From positions 1 through 12,098 of the forward strand of contig JALRLY010000230.1 in the NCBI GenBank assembly GCA_023647555.1: a stretch of 12,098 nt of DNA, written 5' to 3'. Position numbers and translations under genes: made by a program. Source of the stretch: Pancytospora philotis (taxonomy: Eukaryota > Microsporidia). Below the pieces are notes generated by a model that saw nothing but the letters and a program-made list of their open reading frames with translations, ran no database searches and was not told where the DNA came from. Shown piece by piece: positions 1,355 through 11,359 of this stretch; within the stretch, counting starts at the first letter, position 1, and each line of letters opens with the position of its first letter.

Positions 1355-1873
1355 ATGCAAATGAGCCCTAAGATGCCAAGTTTAGACTTGAGCAGCGAGA
1401 GCGTGTGCGCGACGGGGCGCCTGCGCGAGGACCTGAGCACGATAAAGAGCAAGTTCGAGCGGATGGTTGCGATCCAGCACGGCATCCTCAACGATTTTTT
1501 GGAGATCAACAACAGGCTCGACAGCGAGGACTACGAGGAGCAGTCCGAGGAGCCGGGCAAGCGGCGCAAGAAATGGGGCAACCGGGACTACGAGTTTGTG
1601 GGCGTGTCGCCGAAGGCTGCGCTCGAGGACATCGCGGAGATCTTCGAGGAAAAGTTTGTCAGAACTGCGAAGAGCGCGTCGACGAGCTTCAAGAAGAACG
1701 ACGCGGTCACGTGCATCCTGGGCAAGCGCAAGTACAGCGGGATTGTGTTCAGCGTCAACGACAAGGAGGTGACCATAAAGACGACCGACCGCAAGAAGAT
1801 CAAAATTTCGTGGGAGAAGGTCGTTAAGGGCGATATCCAGCTGCTCAAGAGCAGAGATGACAATAAATACTAG
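1355..1873 (+). CDS. Small coiled-coil protein with SH3/Tudor-like C-terminus
   Basis: This encodes 172 residues. Residues 20-55 look helical (LREDLSTIKSKFERMVAIQ and following). Next come an acidic stretch (EDYEEQSEEPG, 58-68) and a basic KRRKKW patch (69-74). Residues 112-156 alternate short beta strands with a KND turn (FKKNDAVTCILGKRKYSGIVF, then KEVTIKTTD), as expected of a small SH3/Tudor/KOW-like barrel. A chromatin reader such as an SGF29-like subunit or an SMN/SPF30-type Tudor protein is possible, but SGF29 has a tandem Tudor and no diagnostic residues are visible, so I leave the family open. The start could be either ATG, 1355 or 1361 (MQMSPKM). The forward frame is preferred over the open reverse frame because of its GC-rich third positions and hydrophilic, Lys/Glu-rich product. 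An AATAAA overlaps the last codons. Confidence 0.8.
   Translation: MQMSPKMPSLDLSSESVCATGRLREDLSTIKSKFERMVAIQHGILNDFLEINNRLDSEDYEEQSEEPGKRRKKWGNRDYEFVGVSPKAALEDIAEIFEEKFVRTAKSASTSFKKNDAVTCILGKRKYSGIVFSVNDKEVTIKTTDRKKIKISWEKVVKGDIQLLKSRDDNKY
1862..1867 (+). terminator. Possible polyadenylation signal AATAAA
   Basis: AATAAA lies within the last codons of the 1355-1873 gene, a few bases before its stop codon. In compact microsporidian-like genomes, 3' untranslated regions are very short and such signals can overlap the coding end. Chance occurrence cannot be excluded. Confidence 0.3.
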
Positions 1874-2024: not shown

Positions 2025-3908
2025 ATGCGCCTATCTCGCTGTATTCTAGCCGTGTCGAGCGCGTGTGCGGCCATGTATACTGTTAGTGGCGCGAGGAATG
2101 GCAGGCAGCGGGAGTATTGCCGGCCCGCGTACGGGATACCGAAAACAGACATGACTGTTAGTAAAGTGCTTGTGCTCTTCCGCCACGGCGACAGAGCACC
2201 GCTTGCCGGCGGAAGCAAGGCGTGGGAGGGCAAAGAGTGCATTGGCTGCGCCAATGGGACATGTGCCAAAACAAAGTGCGAAAACGGAATGCTGACGTCC
2301 CTGGGATACAAACAGGGCCAGACACTGGGCGCATTCCTGAAGAAGAACTACGGCGGGCTTTTCGCTGACACGAGCACCGTTGAGGCCAGATTCAGCGGCG
2401 TTGATCGCACCGAGGCGATGCTTACGGCAGTGCTGCAGGGGCTCGGGCTGAGAGGAAGCGCGTATGCCGCGGACCCGGCGCTACTCGCCGACCAGGCATG
2501 CTACAAGCTGCACTCCGCTTGGGAGATCGAGAGCAACGCGCGCATCAACTACCTGGAAGTGGACGGCTACCTCACGAGCATGTGCAACCGCATCCCGATA
2601 GAGTGCAGCACGCGCAGCTGTGGAAAAGGCAAAATTATGGAAATGGTCAACTCCATGATGGGAAACTACAAGAAGCTCATGGAGCGCTTCCACGACGATT
2701 TGCCCGTAATGGCTGCGCTGTTCAAAGAGTATGCCCAGCTTCTGCTCAGTGTTATCGATGGCAAACCCAGCGCGGTGCTCCTTTCAGCGCACGATTCTAC
2801 CGTTTCAAAGCTGCTGAACGGCCTCAATACAAACATCCGTACGGTGCCTTCGTACGCGAGCACTGCTATTCTGGAGGTGCTTTCGGACCGCGCGGGCGCG
2901 CAGCATGCCCGGCTGCTCTACGAAGGAAAGGCGGTCGCCTTCGGCCCGAAAAAGGGGCTTCTGGTGCCGCTCGACGAGCTCCGGGCCTACCTGAGCAGCA
3001 TTGCCGCGCAGAAACCGGCGATTGACGCGGTGTGTGCGGACTACAGAGAGAACCGTGTGGACTCGGCCGCCGCGAGAGCTTCGATCGCCGAAGCACTCGA
3101 CCCCGGCCTTACTGCGAGCTGGAGCCGAACTGATAAGCCAGGCGTGGCGGCCCCTTTCAGCATGAGGAAGACACTGGTCGTCAGCTTAGAGCATGTCAGG
3201 AACTATCTGCTCGACGCCAACCGGTCCCTTCTCTTCGCAACCGGCTGGGAGGTGCCGCGGGACAGCCTGCTAGCTGCCAAAGCCGAGAAAGTCAGTGAGC
3301 CTCCCTCTGAGCAGGAGAACGCGAGGCCAGCTAAGAAGCCCAGGAAGAAGAAAAAGACCAAGCCACGCAAAGCGAGCAGCAGCTCAGACGCTAAAGCAGA
3401 CGCCGAATGCAGCGATATTGCAGAGAAAAAGACAGAATGCGACAGTGCGCCCAGCTGTAGCTGCGGCAATAAATGTCCTGCACGCAATGCTTGCTCCTGC
3501 GGCGATAAGTGCACCTGTGGCGATAAGTGCACCTGTGGTAGGGGCGCACCCCAAGCCGCTGGAGCAGCTGCCACATGCAACTGCGGCTGCCAGGCCTCAC
3601 GCCCGCAGGGAAACAGTGATAACTGCTCAGAAGCTAAGCCCTCATGCTCAAAATGCAGCTGTGGCGCGGAGCAGGGAACCTTGTGCGAGCAGGCTGAGAG
3701 CGCGGTTGACAATGGTTGCGGCTGTGCAAAGCGTCGCAACAAGCCACGCTGCGGCGTAATAGAAGGCTGCAAAAAGGAGGACGCCTCCTCGAAGTTCTGC
3801 GGATTCTCTAGGCAAGTAGAAACATACACCTATTCAGAAATAGAGCCCGTGCCGGTTCCAGTGTGCAACAATAATTCGAGCACCTTTTGCCCCACTTGCG
3901 CTGCATAG
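2025..3908 (+). CDS. Secreted histidine acid phosphatase with Cys-rich tail
   Basis: This encodes 627 residues. Residues 1-23 look like a signal peptide (MRLSRCILAVSSACAAM...). The histidine acid phosphatase core is clear: RHGDRAP at 53-59 with nucleophile His54, a second conserved Arg region (RFSGVDRTEAM, 122-132), and the acid-catalyst motif AHDSTVS at 255-261 (His256, Asp257). The family hydrolyses phosphomonoesters by a phosphohistidine intermediate, usually outside the cell or in the secretory path. The core seems to end near residue 410. Residues 437-449 form a Lys/Arg cluster (KKPRKKKKTKPRK) that contains heparin-binding-like XBBXBX spacing. Residues 462-625 carry 27 cysteines in CxC, CGDKC and CSC patterns, like a metallothionein or a disulfide-linked wall protein. 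The tail shares the frame and base composition of the core, so it is a true fusion and not a read-through. A spore-wall or host-contact role is inference. The convergent DusA-like gene follows after 173 bases. Confidence 0.9.
   Translation: MRLSRCILAVSSACAAMYTVSGARNGRQREYCRPAYGIPKTDMTVSKVLVLFRHGDRAPLAGGSKAWEGKECIGCANGTCAKTKCENGMLTSLGYKQGQTLGAFLKKNYGGLFADTSTVEARFSGVDRTEAMLTAVLQGLGLRGSAYAADPALLADQACYKLHSAWEIESNARINYLEVDGYLTSMCNRIPIECSTRSCGKGKIMEMVNSMMGNYKKLMERFHDDLPVMAALFKEYAQLLLSVIDGKPSAVLLSAHDSTVSKLLNGLNTNIRTVPSYASTAILEVLSDRAGAQHARLLYEGKAVAFGPKKGLLVPLDELRAYLSSIAAQKPAIDAVCADYRENRVDSAAARASIAEALDPGLTASWSRTDKPGVAAPFSMRKTLVVSLEHVRNYLLDANRSLLFATGWEVPRDSLLAAKAEKVSEPPSEQENARPAKKPRKKKKTKPRKASSSSDAKADAECSDIAEKKTECDSAPSCSCGNKCPARNACSCGDKCTCGDKCTCGRGAPQAAGAAATCNCGCQASRPQGNSDNCSEAKPSCSKCSCGAEQGTLCEQAESAVDNGCGCAKRRNKPRCGVIEGCKKEDASSKFCGFSRQVETYTYSEIEPVPVPVCNNNSSTFCPTCAA
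3501..3536 (+). repeat. 18-base tandem repeat in the Cys-rich tail
   Basis: Two identical 18-base units (GGCGATAAGTGCACCTGT) stand in direct tandem and continue into a partial third unit (GG). They encode the CGDKCT repeat of the phosphatase tail. Identity at the DNA level, including synonymous positions, points to recent duplication and therefore to possible copy-number variation between strains. Confidence 0.8.
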
Positions 3909-3984: not shown

Positions 3985-3990
3985 AATAAA
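3985..3990 (+). terminator. Possible polyadenylation signal AATAAA
   Basis: AATAAA lies 77 bases after the stop of the acid phosphatase, in the 173-base gap between two convergent genes (3909-4081). The rest of this gap is AT-rich and I see no RNA gene or other open frame in it. Confidence 0.4.
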
Positions 3991-4081: not shown

Positions 4082-5056
4082 CTAGCAGAGGTGCGGCTCT
4101 AACTGCGCCATGATCTGGTCGAAGCCGAGCTCGTTGTGCGCCATCTCCGACAGCAGCTTCCGAAATGCCTTGTTATTGCCCTTTCCGCGCCGCACGTTGT
4201 TGAGGGGAAGCAGCACTTTCGACTTCGAGCAGAAGAAGTCGGCAGCCTCAGAGAGGTAGCCGCGGACAGCAGCGCCCAGCAGCTGCAGGCTGGCAAGCTC
4301 TGCATACTCGTGATCCGCAGCATGCTCAGCCGCGAGCAGCGCATCGTAGTAGCTGAAGATGAAGGGGTCGTCCACCGCGTGCCGGCCGATCATGAGGCCG
4401 TCGAGGTTGCCGAGCACATCCAGCCCGTTCCGCGCGATGCCGCCGTTGAGGGCTATGAAGAGATGCGGCATGGCCGCCTTGAGGTCGTACACGAACTGGT
4501 AGTTCAGGGGCGGAACCGTCCTGTTCTGCTTCGGGTTCAGGCCCTTGAGCCAGCACTTGCGTGCATGCACGTAGAACTTGCGGCACGGCGTTTCCCGCGA
4601 TATGCGCTCGACGAAGCCGCGGAAGAAGTCGTAGGAGTCGAGCTCGTCGACGCCGATCCGGATCTTCAGAGAGAGGACCGCGCCCGTGCGCCCGTGCACG
4701 GCGTTGATGATATCGACGACCCGGCCGGCGTCGCGCATCAGGATCGCGCCGAAGCAGCCCGACTGCACGCGGTCCGACGGGCAGCCGCAGTTGAGGTTGA
4801 AGTCGTGCCAGCCGAGCGCCACCAGCTTCTCCACCGCGCGCGCAACATCATCGGGCTCGCTCCCGCCGATCTGCACAACGGTGCGCGGCTCGGGCTGGCC
4901 GAGAATGTGCTGCAGCTTCTCGTCGCTCGCGTAAATGACCGTGTTGGCCACGATCATCTCCGTGAACAGCACTGCGCTCGGCGCCATCTTCCGCGTGAAG
5001 AGCCGGAACTGCGGCGTGGTGACTTTGAGCATCGGCGCTAGACTGAGCTCCACCAT
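4082..5056 (-). CDS. dusA-like: tRNA-dihydrouridine synthase, DusA type
   Basis: This encodes 324 residues of an FMN-dependent enzyme that reduces uridine to dihydrouridine in the tRNA D-loop. Visible family motifs: APML (7-10), TEM (32-34), QIGGSEP (62-68), NLNCGCPSDRVQSGCFGA (87-104) with catalytic Cys92, KIRIG (131-135), VHARKCWLKGLNPKQNR (163-179) and NGG (204-206). CPSDRVQ and HARK-WL-GL-PK-NR are hallmarks of bacterial DusA; eukaryotic Dus1-3 have different sequences around the catalytic Cys. The C-terminal helical tRNA-binding part is also DusA-like (KAFRKLLSEMAHN). The open frame extends upstream to 5221, but I place the start at 5056: family homology begins about five residues later and a promoter-like block ends at this ATG. 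A six-codon upstream frame (5079-5062) overlaps the leader. It lies in tandem behind the Bre1 gene with a 183-base gap. Confidence 0.9.
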   Translation of the reverse strand: MVELSLAPMLKVTTPQFRLFTRKMAPSAVLFTEMIVANTVIYASDEKLQHILGQPEPRTVVQIGGSEPDDVARAVEKLVALGWHDFNLNCGCPSDRVQSGCFGAILMRDAGRVVDIINAVHGRTGAVLSLKIRIGVDELDSYDFFRGFVERISRETPCRKFYVHARKCWLKGLNPKQNRTVPPLNYQFVYDLKAAMPHLFIALNGGIARNGLDVLGNLDGLMIGRHAVDDPFIFSYYDALLAAEHAADHEYAELASLQLLGAAVRGYLSEAADFFCSKSKVLLPLNNVRRGKGNNKAFRKLLSEMAHNELGFDQIMAQLEPHLC

Positions 5057-5073
5057 CTGGGCTAAAAATGTGC
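5057..5073 (-). promoter_or_regulatory. ATTTTTAGCCC block at the DusA-like start
   Basis: On the reverse strand this reads GCACATTTTTAGCCCAG directly before the ATG at 5056. It closely matches the block before the Bre1-like start (AAAATTTTATAGCC). A second, stronger copy (AGAAAATTTTTGGGC) lies at 5110-5096. The position beside the ATG supports the shorter start. Confidence 0.45.
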
Positions 5074-5183
5074 ACGCATTTTCAAGCAGCCAACGGCCCA
5101 AAAATTTTCTAAACCGTGGGCGCGAGACAGCACATCCGCCGAGCAAGAGAGAGCGAGCGCCAAAATCGGTCCATACCATATGA

Positions 5184-5189
5184 TTTATT
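5184..5189 (-). terminator. Possible polyadenylation signal for the Bre1-like gene
   Basis: AATAAA on the reverse strand, about 50 bases beyond the stop of the RING ligase gene and upstream of the DusA-like start. This position supports separate transcripts for the two tandem genes. Confidence 0.35.
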
Positions 5190-5239
5190 TTCCAAGCTGC
5201 ACAGCGCAGCAGGCCAAACAAAAGCGCACGTACGCACTT

Positions 5240-6745
5240 TCATACCTGGCCCGTAGACGAGGTGTTCAGATAGAGCTTCTTGACGTCGCTCATCGCGAAG
5301 TCGACGTCGCACGTGGGGCAGCGCCTGTGCCGCGACTTGAACTGGCTCGTGACGCAGTCCATGCAGAAGCAGTGCATGCACTTGACGATTGTGCAGTTTT
5401 TGATATTTGTGTTGCAGAGCGAGCACCGGAGCGCGCGCTGGTACATCTCTATGTTCTCGAGCGCGGAGGCGAGGCCGTCCCGCTGGCATATGCTCTTGTA
5501 CGTGCCCACCGTCTTCTCGTACTTCATGTTGTTCTGCTCGCTGAGCGCCAGCTTGGCCTGCACGCGCTCGAGCTCCGCCAGCGACGCCCTGTGCGCGGCC
5601 TTAGCGTTCTGCAGCTCGCCGCCGAGGGCCGCCAGCTTGTGCTCCGCCTCTGCGAGCGCAGCCCTGTGGCGCTGCGTCCGGGTGTCCTGCTCCGCCTGCG
5701 CGGTGGCGAGCGCCCTCTCGCGCTCGGCCAGCGCGCCGCTCATCTCCGAGAGCTCCTCGCGGCAGCCGTCGAAGCGCCGCTTCTCGCGCTCGATGAAGGC
5801 GCGGTCGTCGTCGAGCAGCTTGAGCTTGTTCTGCAGCTGCGCGTTGTCGGCAAACATGGTCTGCTGCCGCTTCTGCAGCCCGGAGATCTGCGTCTCGAGC
5901 TCCTGGTTCGTCCGCACCGACCTCTCAAACGCCTCGGCAACGCTGCGCAGCTCCTCCGTGAGAATGGCCTCCACGCCGTCGGCAGGCGCGGCGCTGATGT
6001 GCGATTTGGCGCGCAGGAGGCTGTCCTTCTCCTTTATTTGATCCTCGAGCATGCGCACCATCTTCATCGCGTCGCGCGTCGTCTTGTCCGCGACGGCGAG
6101 ATCGGCCGTCATCGTGAGAAAGCGCTCGCGGTACTTGGAGACCTCCAGCTGCGCCTCGTGCACGGCGCCGGCGGTCGCTGCGATATCGAGCGCGGCCGGC
6201 GCCTCGGCGGCGGGGCGCACGCTCTCGCGCAGGCTCTTCTCCAGCCGCTCGATCTTGTCCTTGTAGCGGCCGGCGCGGTTCTGGTGCTCGAGCCTCAGAT
6301 CCGCGGCCTCCTGGCGCTGCCGGTCGCACTGCTTCTTGAGCTGCAGATTCTCCGCGCTGAGCTCCGCCAGTATCTCCTTGTCGGCGACGGACTGCTCGCT
6401 GATGCAGACCCGCTTCGCCTGCGAGTCCTCGAGCGTCCGCTGGCGCTCCTGCAGCGCGCGCACCGTCGTCTGCAGCGCGCGGATCGACTCGTCGCGGCTC
6501 TTCAGCTCGGCGCCGGTGTCCTTCGGGCACCAGAGGTTCTCGCTGCTGTTGACGGGGTTCTCCTGCTCCATGCCGAGCGCGCCGCAACCGCCGGCGCCGT
6601 GCTTGTACTCGCCCATGCGCCGGTAGAGGTACTCCTGCTGGCGCGCGCCGAGCCCGGACTTGTCGAGCAGCGATCTGAGCTCAGAAACGGCCGCGCGCAG
6701 CTTGGCTTTGAACGCCTTCGCGTGTATTTTGTTCGCAGCAATCAT
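5240..6745 (-). CDS. BRE1: Bre1/RNF20-type E3 ubiquitin ligase
   Basis: This encodes 501 residues. Almost the whole length up to residue 430 is coiled coil, with Glu/Lys/Gln-rich heptads and only short breaks (an AAEAPAALDIAATAG linker near 180). The C-terminus has an intact C3HC4 RING at 441-479: Cys441, Cys444, Cys456, His458, Cys461, Cys464, Cys476, Cys479, followed by DVKKLYL. The arrangement (C-terminal RING after long coiled coils, with NIKN between the first Cys pairs and DVKKLYL after the last) is that of Bre1, which ubiquitylates histone H2B with the E2 Rad6 during transcription. It is shorter than the usual 700-1000 residue family members, as expected in a reduced genome. The start at 6745 is fixed by an AAAATTTT block that ends at this ATG. 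A long forward-strand frame across the same DNA is a GC-driven shadow. It is divergent from TAF2. Confidence 0.9.
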   Translation of the reverse strand: MIAANKIHAKAFKAKLRAAVSELRSLLDKSGLGARQQEYLYRRMGEYKHGAGGCGALGMEQENPVNSSENLWCPKDTGAELKSRDESIRALQTTVRALQERQRTLEDSQAKRVCISEQSVADKEILAELSAENLQLKKQCDRQRQEAADLRLEHQNRAGRYKDKIERLEKSLRESVRPAAEAPAALDIAATAGAVHEAQLEVSKYRERFLTMTADLAVADKTTRDAMKMVRMLEDQIKEKDSLLRAKSHISAAPADGVEAILTEELRSVAEAFERSVRTNQELETQISGLQKRQQTMFADNAQLQNKLKLLDDDRAFIEREKRRFDGCREELSEMSGALAERERALATAQAEQDTRTQRHRAALAEAEHKLAALGGELQNAKAAHRASLAELERVQAKLALSEQNNMKYEKTVGTYKSICQRDGLASALENIEMYQRALRCSLCNTNIKNCTIVKCMHCFCMDCVTSQFKSRHRRCPTCDVDFAMSDVKKLYLNTSSTGQV

Positions 6746-6762: not shown

Positions 6763-7102
6763 GAAAATATTTAGTTGCTCGATCACCGCGCCCAGCGGCG
6801 GCAGCGTGCTATGCTATGAAAGGGGCGCTCACGATTGATGGGCCGGGTGCGCATGGACTCAACCAGAAACTATAACCGCCTATTAATGTGAGGCAATAAT
6901 TAAGCAGTGATTAAATAATTTAGGCGCTAGTTTGAACCTAGATGTAAACTGAGCTATTTAACGCTCGCTACTGCATCCATAGCACAGCTATTGTAATATT
7001 AGCATGCGCACCGCCAGCATCCGCTGCCCAGAGCTGGATCTACTGCCATGCGAAGGAATCCGCGCCGCAGCGCTGCCCGCGAGAGCGCAGGACTCAGGGC
7101 TG
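6763..7102. other. Intergenic region between divergent Bre1 and TAF2
   Basis: About 340 bases with AT-rich stretches (for example ATTAAATAATTT near 6911-6922) between two divergent transcription-related genes, so it should hold both promoters. A frame in phase with TAF2 is open from an ATG at 7004, but its third positions are much less GC-rich than those after 7124. I see no convincing RNA gene: a tRNA-like TAGCTCAG ... GGTTCAAA pair on the reverse strand is too close together. Confidence 0.5.
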
Positions 7103-7120
7103 AAAATTTTGCATGGCCCC
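7103..7120 (+). promoter_or_regulatory. AAAATTTT/GGCCCC block before the TAF2 ATG at 7124
   Basis: AAAATTTTGCATGGCCCC ends three bases before an ATG that is in frame with TAF2. It carries both halves of the shared motif (AAATTT, then CCC) at the spacing seen elsewhere, and marks a sharp rise in third-position GC. It is the main reason for choosing 7124 rather than 7004 as the start. Confidence 0.5.
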
Positions 7121-7123
7121 AAT

Positions 7124-10100
7124 ATGAGGGTCCGCGGCCAGAAGAATGTGTACTACATCGACCTAGGGAAGGGCGTGTGCTGCGGCTACATCGAGACCAG
7201 CATAACCCGCGAGCCGCACGAGAGCCGCGTGGTCTACGAGTGCCGCTACCAGCAGGTAGAGAGCATCGCGGTGCTGAACGACGACGGCGCCCCGCTCAGC
7301 GTGGACTTTGCGTGCCGCGCGGGCAGCTGCGGGACCGTGCAGATTCTGTGTGGGTCTGAAGCGACAGGCGCTGTGGCAGGTGAGAATAAAAAGAGCAGTG
7401 CCGAGCCTGCGCTGGATGCCGCAACAGACGGCCAGCCCGCAGCAGAAGCGACCGAACCCCCAAAGGAAGAGGCTGATCCGCAGCCCAGCAGCGGCTTCGC
7501 GATCGAGCTGCCTGGGTCTTTCAGCGAGGAGAAGTTCGTGCTCCGCGTTGCGTTCCGCGCTACGGCCGACAACCCGGACCTGCGCTGGTACCGGCCGGTC
7601 GACGCGGGCGACCGGCACCGCGAGGTCGTCGGCTTCGGCGCATGCCCCTTCGATGCCCCGGGCGGCGCCTCTGCGCTCGCGCCGTACATCGGCGTAGCCA
7701 CGCAGTTCGAGCTCATTTACGTGGTGCCCAACAAGGAGGATGTCCGCGTGGCCTCCTCTGGCGCGCTGTACGCCATCAAGGAGGAGGACCAGAACATCGT
7801 CCACTCCTACCGCGTGTTCGCGCATCCCGCGCACCTCGTGTTCTCCGTGGGCACGTACGAGCAGACCGACATCTTTGCCGACAGCGATGCGCGGCGGATC
7901 CTCTCGCCTGCGGGCACCGAGGACCTGGCGGACGTGCAGTCTGACCTGCAGGGTACCGTACGGTGCATCGAGTCGTTCACCAGAACCGATGCGCTGCGCG
8001 CGCTCACCGTGGTGTTCACTATGGTGGACTTCTCTGTGGTGCGGAGCGCGCCCGACGTCATCATCCTCGGCGCCGCGCGCATTCCCGGGCCGACGGCCGT
8101 CGAGCCCGCCTACGATTTTAAGCAGACGCTGTGCGACGCCCTGTCGTACAACGTGTACGGCTTTCTGCGCTGGGACGCCTTCGACTCGTGGATCAAGCAC
8201 GGCCTGGCGGGCTACCTCTCCGACCACGCGTACCGCAGCATCCTCGGTATGAACGAGTTTCTGTCCAACTACAAGCAGGACCGCGACTATGTGCTGGACA
8301 ACGATGTGTACGAGCCGCCGCTCTTCTACACGCAGCGCCCCGCGGTGGACTACCAGAGCCGCTTCTTCAGGACGAAGAGCAAGCTCGTGTTCCACTGTCT
8401 GGAGGCGCAGCTCAGCCTCGCCTTTCTGCAGAAGATCTCCGACGAGGTGGTCGGTGCCAAGAAGCAGGGCGCCTCCAGTCTGGGGAGCAGCGTTGCGCAG
8501 GGCAGCGCGTCGCCCGGCCAGCCCACGCTCTTCACGCCGCAGTTCATAAAGATCATAAAGGACGCGACGGGCAAGGACATGAGTCTGTTCTTCGACATGT
8601 ACGTCTTCTGCCCCGGGCTTCTGCGCGTCAAGCTCGCGCTGCAGATCAACCGCAAGAAGAACACGGTGCGGGTCACGCCGTCGGTGCTTCCGACCAGCAG
8701 GCTCCAGGGCTGCAACACGCACTACAGCGGCGCCATTCTGCTGAAGACGTCCGAGATCGAGGGCGCCTTCGACCACGATGCCAGCCTCGATGCCGAGACC
8801 ACGTTCTTCTACCACACGCGCGCCAAGAAGAAGAAAAAGGAGGACGAGGAGGAGGTGATGCCGCTGCTCTTCGTGCGCGCTGATCCGAAGCGCGAGTATC
8901 TGTTCGACATCGCCGTGGAGCAGCCCGACTACATGCACATGGAGCAGCTGTCGGAGAAGAACGTGCTCGGGCAGCTCGAGGCGATCGATGCGCTGCGCGG
9001 CAAGCCCACGGTGCTATCGTGCGAGGCGCTGGAGCGGGTGCTGGACAATACACACGTGTTCTACAAGGTGCGTGTGAAGATCCTGTACGTCCTGCGCGAG
9101 GTCGCGATCGAGGGGTACAACGGGCTGCAGCGCCTCATCCAGTACTTTGTGCGGACGCGCTGCGTGCCGAACTCCACGGTCATCAAGGCCAATGAGTTTG
9201 GGCTGGTGAACTACTTCGTGCAGAAGCATCTCGTAAGGGCCATCGCCTCGTTTGCGGCACCCCCGGGCAGCGTTTTCGCGGGTCGCAGCAGCGCAGGTGA
9301 GGGCCTAGGAATGGCGGCTGGGAGTGCAGGCAGTGGAATCGACCAGCTGCTGAAAGGCGGCACAGCAAAGGAGCGGTATGGCGCAACCGGCGCTGCTGCT
9401 GCGCTTCCTAAGCTCGTCCAGGACTGCAGGATGGTGGTAGCCTTTTTGACGAATATTCTCAAGTTCAACGACAATTCGCTGAGCACATTCGACGATTCGT
9501 GGTACCTTGCCACGGTGATCAACTGTCTGAGCTCGCAGATGGTTCTGCTGCACCAGTGCGGCGCGCTGGAGCCCAGGGCGCTCGAAGACTGCCTTTCTGA
9601 GATGGAGCGCTTCCGGATCCTCGACATGCTCTTCCCATCGAGCAACAACATCATCTCACAGAGCTGCCTCATTTCTCTCCTCCGCCTGGCCTACAACGGG
9701 CTCATCACGCTCGACAAAGGCATTTTGCTCTCGCTCTGCGGGTACCCGAACCACCCGTCGATCAGGCTCGTTGCGATCGAGGGCCTCCTTATTCTCTACG
9801 AGGATGCGGCCCTGGACGTGCTGGGGTCCATCCAGACGGACACTGTCTACTTCCAGCTGCGCGTTTTTGAGCTCATTGCGCGGCTTCTGAGCATGGATCT
9901 GTGCAGCTTCTACAGGGCCAAAGACAGCGCAGCTGGCAGCGCAACGCTCGGCGAGGTGAGGATGCGCCTCGATTCGTTCCGGGAGCTCCATGCGTGCCAT
10001 CCACCGATGAGGCATCTGCTCGGAAACATCTTGCAGTTTCTGGAAGGCCACGGCATCAGCATTGCAGCGTTCAAAGAATCGGTGGTGAGCAACTTCAGCC

Positions 10101-11359
10101 TTGCCGAGGAGGAGGGCATAAGGCGCACGATGCTGCACATCACCAGGACGCACCGCGCGGTCAGGGTGGTCGGCTTCGACGAGCTGCGGCTTGGCCTGCT
10201 GTCCCAGCTCGGCAGGATCAGGCTGCCCAGATGCGCGAGGATCGTCATCAAGCTGCAGAACAAGAGCAGCCCGCAGATCCGTCTGCCGTATTCCAGCTAC
10301 GTCACGAAGAACATCAATGCGACGGTCTTCCGCTTCAAGGTCTCCACCAAGCCGATCCAGTACCGCCGCGCCGACATTCCCACCCTTCTGATTTCGAAGA
10401 TCCGCGGCCACCACTCGGTGTCGTACGTGGAGGAGTTTTTGAAATCGGCGAAGCTGGTGGGCTTCTTCGACTGGCAGCCGGCGACCCTCGGCTCCATCCA
10501 GGAGGCGCTGCTGGTGCGCCCCTCCTGCACGATGGCGCCGCCGGTGCCTGCCGTTTACCTGCACCCGCACTCAGAGCAGGCCGCGGTGCTGCGCTCGCTC
10601 AACGACCCGAACTCGCTCAGTCAGGTGTACAGGCGCATAGAAAAGGCACTCGTGTACGCGCTCAGCTACACGGAGTTCAAGAGCAAGATCTACTACGCTG
10701 CCAAGGTGATCTTCAATCTGCTGGAGCGCACCGCCTTCCAGCACGCCTACATCGAGGCGGCCGTGATACCGATGAGCGACCAGCTGCGCGCTGAGTGCTA
10801 TGCACTGGTGGATAGCCTCATTGCCGACGGCCGATTCGTGGCTTTCGTAGAGCCGGTGAACTGCGCAGAGCTGAAGACGTACCCCGACATCGTGCGCTTC
10901 CCCGTGTCCCTCAGTGAGGTGCGCGCCAATCTCAGCTTCTACTGCAGCTATAACAGCTTCATTCTGGAGCTCGACCGTGTCCACCAGAACTGCCTCAACT
11001 TCAACAACGTGGCTTCTGACATCGCGAAGGCGGCCATCGCGCTGCGCGGGCTGGTGGACGCGTTCAAGGGCAGGATAGTCTCTGCCCAGAACGAGCTGGA
11101 GCTGGTCGACAGCTACAAGGTCCTCGAGAGCATCATCAGCTCGGTCGACGATGCCGGGTGCTTCAGCGGGCTTCTCGCCAGCCTCAAAAGCCTGCGCGCA
11201 TGGGGCGATATCGATAACGAGCTTTTGGAGATCAAGCGGAAGTACTCGCGCAATGCATCAGACGCGAAGGCGTATCTGGGCGGCATCAAGGAGATCCGCC
11301 GGCAGATCAGGTACTGGTTTTCAGTCGACAGCGGCAGAGTGCTGGGTGTTTGCGAGTAG
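7124..11359 (+). CDS. TAF2: TFIID subunit TAF2 with C-terminal bromodomain
   Basis: This encodes 1411 residues from the preferred start (1451 from 7004). TAF2 is the TFIID subunit related to M1 aminopeptidases that contacts core promoter DNA. The N-terminal beta domain opens with QKNVYYIDLGKGVCCGYIET, matching the TAF2 start, and holds a low-complexity insert (about 83-123, Pro/Glu/Ala-rich). The peptidase zinc motif is replaced by ALSYNVYG (339-346), followed by WIKHGLAGYL (356-365), so it is catalytically dead like other TAF2s. A Lys-then-Glu run (568-577) and EQPDYM (599-604), with VLDNTHVFYKVRVKILYVLREVA after it, match TAF2 closely. Helical ARM/HEAT-like sequence follows to about 1150. 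Residues about 1205-1315 fit a bromodomain: YPDIVRFPVSL (1253-1263) and NCLNFN (1289-1294), with Asn1294 at the acetyl-lysine position. The forward frame is GC-rich at third positions; the reverse frames are shadows. Confidence 0.92.
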   Translation: MRVRGQKNVYYIDLGKGVCCGYIETSITREPHESRVVYECRYQQVESIAVLNDDGAPLSVDFACRAGSCGTVQILCGSEATGAVAGENKKSSAEPALDAATDGQPAAEATEPPKEEADPQPSSGFAIELPGSFSEEKFVLRVAFRATADNPDLRWYRPVDAGDRHREVVGFGACPFDAPGGASALAPYIGVATQFELIYVVPNKEDVRVASSGALYAIKEEDQNIVHSYRVFAHPAHLVFSVGTYEQTDIFADSDARRILSPAGTEDLADVQSDLQGTVRCIESFTRTDALRALTVVFTMVDFSVVRSAPDVIILGAARIPGPTAVEPAYDFKQTLCDALSYNVYGFLRWDAFDSWIKHGLAGYLSDHAYRSILGMNEFLSNYKQDRDYVLDNDVYEPPLFYTQRPAVDYQSRFFRTKSKLVFHCLEAQLSLAFLQKISDEVVGAKKQGASSLGSSVAQGSASPGQPTLFTPQFIKIIKDATGKDMSLFFDMYVFCPGLLRVKLALQINRKKNTVRVTPSVLPTSRLQGCNTHYSGAILLKTSEIEGAFDHDASLDAETTFFYHTRAKKKKKEDEEEVMPLLFVRADPKREYLFDIAVEQPDYMHMEQLSEKNVLGQLEAIDALRGKPTVLSCEALERVLDNTHVFYKVRVKILYVLREVAIEGYNGLQRLIQYFVRTRCVPNSTVIKANEFGLVNYFVQKHLVRAIASFAAPPGSVFAGRSSAGEGLGMAAGSAGSGIDQLLKGGTAKERYGATGAAAALPKLVQDCRMVVAFLTNILKFNDNSLSTFDDSWYLATVINCLSSQMVLLHQCGALEPRALEDCLSEMERFRILDMLFPSSNNIISQSCLISLLRLAYNGLITLDKGILLSLCGYPNHPSIRLVAIEGLLILYEDAALDVLGSIQTDTVYFQLRVFELIARLLSMDLCSFYRAKDSAAGSATLGEVRMRLDSFRELHACHPPMRHLLGNILQFLEGHGISIAAFKESVVSNFSLAEEEGIRRTMLHITRTHRAVRVVGFDELRLGLLSQLGRIRLPRCARIVIKLQNKSSPQIRLPYSSYVTKNINATVFRFKVSTKPIQYRRADIPTLLISKIRGHHSVSYVEEFLKSAKLVGFFDWQPATLGSIQEALLVRPSCTMAPPVPAVYLHPHSEQAAVLRSLNDPNSLSQVYRRIEKALVYALSYTEFKSKIYYAAKVIFNLLERTAFQHAYIEAAVIPMSDQLRAECYALVDSLIADGRFVAFVEPVNCAELKTYPDIVRFPVSLSEVRANLSFYCSYNSFILELDRVHQNCLNFNNVASDIAKAAIALRGLVDAFKGRIVSAQNELELVDSYKVLESIISSVDDAGCFSGLLASLKSLRAWGDIDNELLEIKRKYSRNASDAKAYLGGIKEIRRQIRYWFSVDSGRVLGVCE

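Follow-up and report, generated by a model that had tools for sequence, protein, structure and literature searches.

Many histidine acid phosphatases (HAPs) are soluble enzymes that are secreted or reside in lysosomes, and the closest known enzymes to the protein described here are those of HAP branch 2 (prostatic acid phosphatase, ACP6, PXYLP1-like). The components of the microsporidian wall and polar tube, as in the PTP passages cited hereafter, are known for the most part as structural proteins that evolve fast and are difficult to trace. In passages of two publications (PMC7040029, PMC10229552), the polar tube is described as being solubilised by DTT, PTP1 and PTP2 as having many cysteines, PTP2 as Lys-rich and basic, and PTP1 as divergent between species. 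The locus compared here with these systems encodes a HAP core followed, in the same frame, by a Cys-rich tail, a layout that was also found in four related proteins.

Predicted gene and genomic setting

The window (the whole stretch of DNA that was analysed, 12,098 nucleotides) contains an unbroken frame, from ATG to TAG, encoding in order a probable signal, a HAP core, a linker, a basic cluster and a Cys-rich tail (Table 1). The earlier note had placed the core, the Lys/Arg cluster and the tail in one frame, and the open frame bears this out. Residues 6-15 are hydrophobic (KD 2.13) and fit a signal peptide as judged by hydropathy, and on this start the protein is probably secreted. Pfam His_Phos_2 was matched over residues 45-140 (35.3 bits for a cut-off of 23.6, E 1.1e-8), and the RHGDRAP motif with H54 and the H256-D257 motif were both found, in agreement with the complete HAP core containing H54 and D257 that had been described previously. 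H54 is presumably the nucleophile and D257 the proton donor, by the phospho-histidine mechanism of the HAP family. The predicted model gives a confident core, whose fold, as modelled, is that of a HAP, and residues 402-627 are under pLDDT 50.

Table 1. Coordinates of the features of the phosphatase gene in the window
Feature	Position	Strand	Remark
Whole gene, 627 aa	2025..3908	+	Open frame; four relatives with the same layout
Probable signal peptide, residues 1-22	2025..2090	+	Hydrophobic stretch 6-15; end set by eye
HAP core, about residues 30-372	2112..3140	+	
RHGDR, presumed nucleophile H54	2181..2195	+	R53, H54, R57 invariant in 34/34 rows
Loop C72-x2-C75-x4-C80-x4-C85, after the RHG motif	2238..2279	+	In 5/5 close rows
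R122	2388..2390	+	R in the window protein; R in 21/29 outside HAPs
HD motif, H256-D257	2790..2795	+	Invariant in 34/34 rows
Lys/Arg cluster RPAKKPRKKKKTKPRK, residues 434-449	3324..3371	+	7 basic in 8 residues
Cys-rich tail, C462 to C625	3408..3899	+	27 Cys in 164 aa; low model confidence
18-bp tandem repeat, 2.6 copies, coding CTCGDK	3492..3538	+	Tandem Repeats Finder
AATAAA, possible poly(A) signal	3985..3990		76 bases between stop and AATAAA

Searches of the 3.68 Mb, 83-contig assembly, in which the best candidates were scored, found His_Phos_2 in no second place and the tail, at E 1, in no further copy. A phage origin was considered and rejected, a tblastn search against 50,697 phage records giving no match, and no Rfam family reached the gathering threshold in the window, nor did the SSU rRNA model RF02542 match anywhere in the assembly. 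The hexamer AATAAA occurs 9 times on the two strands of the window versus 1.8 in shuffles (0 of 200 shuffles reach 9), and the copies at 1862 and 3985 are located at or just past gene ends.

The convergent neighbour of the phosphatase gene (4082-5221) encodes a tRNA-dihydrouridine synthase (Dus). Among the best 120 of 3,630 matches, the best named relatives of this protein are from Pancytospora epiphaga (59%), Glugoides intestinalis (56%), Enteropsectra breve (55%) and Vittaforma corneae (53%), and two matches are closer than the named ones (64% and 60%). These relatives are microsporidian, as expected for the microsporidian-like parasite that the earlier note had supposed, and the DNA was thus assigned, on one gene, to a microsporidian near Enteropsectra, Pancytospora and Vittaforma, other than P. 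epiphaga. Passages of PMC10393165 place Enteropsectra and Pancytospora in the Enterocytozoonida.

Upstream, a 172-aa protein (1355-1873, plus strand) has weak matches to KOW and SH3-like families, below the Pfam cut-offs. The minus strand encodes at 5240-6745 a long protein that ends in a C3HC4 RING finger, also below Pfam cut-offs, and that we take by eye to be BRE1-like. A TAF2-like protein (7004-11359, plus strand; TPR_TAF2_C 1.2e-24, TAF2_3rd 8e-7) carries in the same frame a bromodomain near its C-terminus (1.2e-9).

Close relatives and the shared layout

A single-sequence search returned P0001 (588 aa, 31%, E 1.9e-58), and a two-row profile returned P0003 of E. breve (1.8e-80), P0004 (6.6e-76) and P0005 (7.3e-62), the next match after P0005 being P0006 of Trinorchestia (4.2e-9). 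These four relatives are 22-31% identical to the window protein. E. breve, which is kept in the laboratory, has Oscheius as its host in passages of PMC5179134. For comparison, the window protein was aligned with 33 of 49 matches, giving 34 rows (5 close members and 29 outside HAPs); the 16 matches omitted by eye were mostly additional mammalian testicular acid phosphatases and weak matches, with one cyanobacterial protein. The five members form one clade (100/100), and from their position with P0003 and the window protein we infer that P0001, P0004 and P0005 are microsporidian.

The homologue search with the full protein, which the earlier note had proposed, yielded four proteins with both core and tail; the tail is in the same frame in all four, contrary to the possibility raised there that phosphatase and Cys-rich segment might always be separate genes in homologues. 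The tails of the relatives contain 17-23 Cys. With tail starts placed by hand, protein by protein, the number of Cys over the number of residues is 27/222 in the window protein and 23/195, 17/192, 19/229 and 17/251 in the four relatives. The maximum per 150 aa is 13-25 Cys in the five members and at most 7 in 28 of the 29 outside HAPs, P0006 having 12. No tail-less close member was seen among 7,998 candidates scored, with lengths of 0.55-1.75 times the query. The statement that members of the family end after the core thus stands for the 29 outside HAPs compared, but not for the four close relatives.

An artefact, in which two genes would have been joined by assembly or read-through, is very improbable. 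Third-position GC, obtained from GC by codon position, is 0.72 in the core versus 0.61 in the tail, and an internal AATAAA at 3468, inside the tail, could end some transcripts early; however, the same fusion is present in four other proteins, including that of E. breve, and it was therefore not considered as a chance read-through. In E. breve, the contigs that carry HAP and Dus are both 45,437 long, so both genes are probably on one contig and linked as in the window, which suggests that the HAP-Dus linkage is conserved between the two genomes.

Among the 7,998 candidates scored, those with the most shared words, the outside matches with names are mostly animal. Because of this sampling of candidates, and because the tree contains no row named as fungal and has long branches that meet, we make no claim that the core came from an animal host. 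The name “2-phosphoxylose phosphatase” of the E. breve protein is a database label. The spider protein P0046 (annotated 2-phosphoxylose phosphatase 1-like) is found in a set of 10 rows with the five members (99/99), a grouping that may give a hint, and only a hint, as to this name, P0046 having the longest end branch. In NCBIfam, no family was found for the window protein or P0001, and the match of P0003 was far below the cut-off.

Within the core, the position of R122, presumably that of the second catalytic Arg of prostatic acid phosphatase, is occupied by M, Y, V and Y in the four relatives, and 8 of the 29 outside HAPs are also without this Arg; judging from the alignment, the activity of these four members may differ. 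The residues after this site are His-Thr in P0001, P0003 and P0004, and Arg-Thr in P0005. C159 and C337, a pair often seen in HAPs, are present in the window protein, P0001 and P0004, and have been lost in P0003 and P0005.

The five members have in addition four cysteines in a loop beside the active-site motif (Table 1). C72, C75 and C80 are found in 0 of the 29 outside HAPs and C85 in 3 of them; 26 of the 29 have a gap at C72, so that most outside HAPs seem to lack the loop as such. The spacing of these cysteines is 2,4,4 in four members and 2,3,4 in P0005. The predicted model draws the loop as two short strands, and it could form a lip at the active site that disulfides pin in place. A zinc knuckle, which we take the CX2CX4CX4C spacing to resemble, was rejected for this loop, the likeness being one of spacing only and the spacing in P0005 being different.

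Composition of the tail and the basic cluster

Cys density was compared over 209,000 bases, made up of the window, two other stretches of the same contig and the first 10 kb of each of contigs C1-C18. They gave 122 mechanical ORFs of 150 aa or more, among which N-bearing frames may be included, as 3,991 of the bases are N. The phosphatase gene has the highest density, with 26 Cys per 160 aa (next 15, median 5). Outside the window, a 249-aa frame on the minus strand (L004:5659-6408) appears gag-like by eye; half of L004 consists of N.

The tails keep composition more than sequence, since most pairs of tails are reached by shuffles: none of 300 shuffles reaches the pair P0001-P0005 and 6 reach P0001-P0003, and for the other 8 of the 10 pairs the number is 17-128. 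No Cys spacing is conserved across the tails of the clade, and the whole proteins contain 0 CC pairs in the window protein and 0, 0, 1 and 0 in the relatives. Modelled alone, without an alignment, the tail has a mean pLDDT of 43, and confidence is low also when it is modelled with the core. The tail thus appears, from modelling, to be disordered; it evolves fast and has a high content of Cys, Lys, Ser and Pro. In P0001, repeats at about residues 469-489 match the Pfam DUF1388 repeat with 23.8 bits for a cut-off of 25.9.

The lack of conserved Cys spacing and the low model confidence are unlike a compact disulfide domain, and they count against a soluble secreted phosphatase that would act on host or vacuolar phosphate esters, with the tail serving for disulfide stability or as a surface region and not as an anchor. 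Such an enzyme would be suited by the signal-like start with a HAP core, and by a window tail in which no known domain was found and whose hydrophobic content is 9%; we consider it unlikely, while keeping it as a serious alternative.

The tail had been called metallothionein-like in the earlier note, on the basis of its Cys content and CxC patterns. The window protein has 8 CxC for 3.1 in shuffles (35 of 5000 shuffles reach 8), and the core loop recalls a zinc knuckle, which could favour a metal-binding tail, with a role in storing or supplying metal or in protecting the enzyme. However, CxC counts in the four relatives are 0, 1, 1 and 0, and three of the eight in the window (C490, C496, C502) fall in the 18-bp tandem repeat, and the name metallothionein is for these reasons unsupported. 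The window tail also matched no Pfam family even at E 10, and the protein would probably be secreted into an oxidising setting, which makes metal binding as the role of the tail quite improbable.

Binding of glycosaminoglycans (GAG) by the basic cluster had also been proposed. A density of 7 basic in 8 residues is reached by 0.0015 of the shuffles of the window tail; the cluster is less marked in P0001, P0003 and P0004, and in P0005 it does not rise above shuffles (0.92 of them reach it). The strict motifs XBBXBX and XBBBXXBX have 0 and 0 occurrences in the window tail and none in the tails of P0001 and P0004, and the tails of P0003 and P0005 have one strict GAG-binding motif each, so that the conserved strict motif to be expected of a GAG-binding adhesin was not found. 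The loose BBXB motif occurs 5 times in the window tail and 4, 2, 2 and 0 times in those of the relatives, counts that for the first four tails are reached by 0.0015, 0.029, 0.092 and 0.07 of shuffles. The loose motif is enriched in the window tail, and GAG binding is weakly supported by these sequences.

An adhesin, in which the cluster would bind host glycosaminoglycans and the phosphatase would be carried along or be a pseudo-enzyme, could draw on the strong basic cluster of the window, on this enrichment, on the loss of the second catalytic Arg in 4 of the 5 members, and on the spore wall proteins with heparin-binding motifs known from passages of PMC7040029. Yet R53, H54, R57, H256 and D257 are kept in all five members, and the second Arg is wanting in outside HAPs as well, which, with the motif counts, makes an adhesin improbable.

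Proposed role and comparison with known systems

The reading that we prefer, with a probability of about 0.5, is that of a secreted phosphatase whose fast-evolving tail tethers it through disulfide cross-links, in the manner of polar tube or spore wall proteins. The enzyme would pass through the secretory pathway, and its core would fold as a HAP with H54 as nucleophile and D257 as donor. In an oxidising environment, the cysteines of the tail would form inter-chain disulfides, which would lock the enzyme into an insoluble structure (spore wall, polar tube or parasite-surface matrix), much as is thought for PTP1 and PTP2. From the high Cys density, the varying spacing, the apparent disorder and the Lys/Pro content, we infer such a cross-linking tail, and secretion, disulfides, location and activity are to be taken in the same way. 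Counting against a tether, P0001 as predicted is without the hydrophobic start present in the other 4 of 5 clade members, the C159/C337 pair is lost in two members and R122 in four, and there is the AATAAA inside the tail. Alternatively, the cysteines of the tail could bind metal, or serve only for its internal stability.

A bolder form of the tethered phosphatase is more tentative, and somewhat unlikely as a whole: a clade near Enteropsectra and Pancytospora would have built a covalently immobilised phosphatase into a disulfide-welded invasion apparatus or wall, with the tail as a self-assembling, sequence-free Cys/Lys/Pro cross-linker. If this were true, the immobilised phosphatase would be an enzymatic, and not a structural, protein of the polar tube or wall.

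No account of a Cys-tailed microsporidian HAP was found in those titles and abstract openings of open-licence papers that were read, and the words “phosphatase” and “cysteine” have 0 occurrences in the main text of the genome paper for the named relatives (PMC10393165). The core belongs to a known family, and its form with a Cys-rich tail, kept within this group of parasites, appears to be new. With a recognisable enzyme core on such a tail, the evolution of the tail can be traced via the core, and its role assayed by activity; if the enzyme is bound to wall or tube, a group of microsporidia with nematode parasites among them would have a phosphatase at the surface.

Compared with metallothioneins, the window tail is likewise Cys-rich with CxC, but the pattern is unconserved, no model is matched and the protein is probably secreted. 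Spore wall proteins with heparin-binding motifs, as presented in passages of PMC7040029 and in the entry for PMC5848443, resemble it by their basic clusters and by the surface role proposed for it; they differ in that the window tail is without a strict motif, and in that these texts mention no phosphatase. PTP1 and PTP2 are secreted, as the window protein probably is, and share with it a Cys-rich and Lys- or Pro-rich composition in passages of PMC10229552 and PMC7040029, which mention no enzyme core; this likeness is one of description. With respect to HAP branch 2, the clade has in addition the four-Cys loop and, over about 190-250 aa, a tail rich in Cys, and 4 of its 5 members have lost the second Arg.
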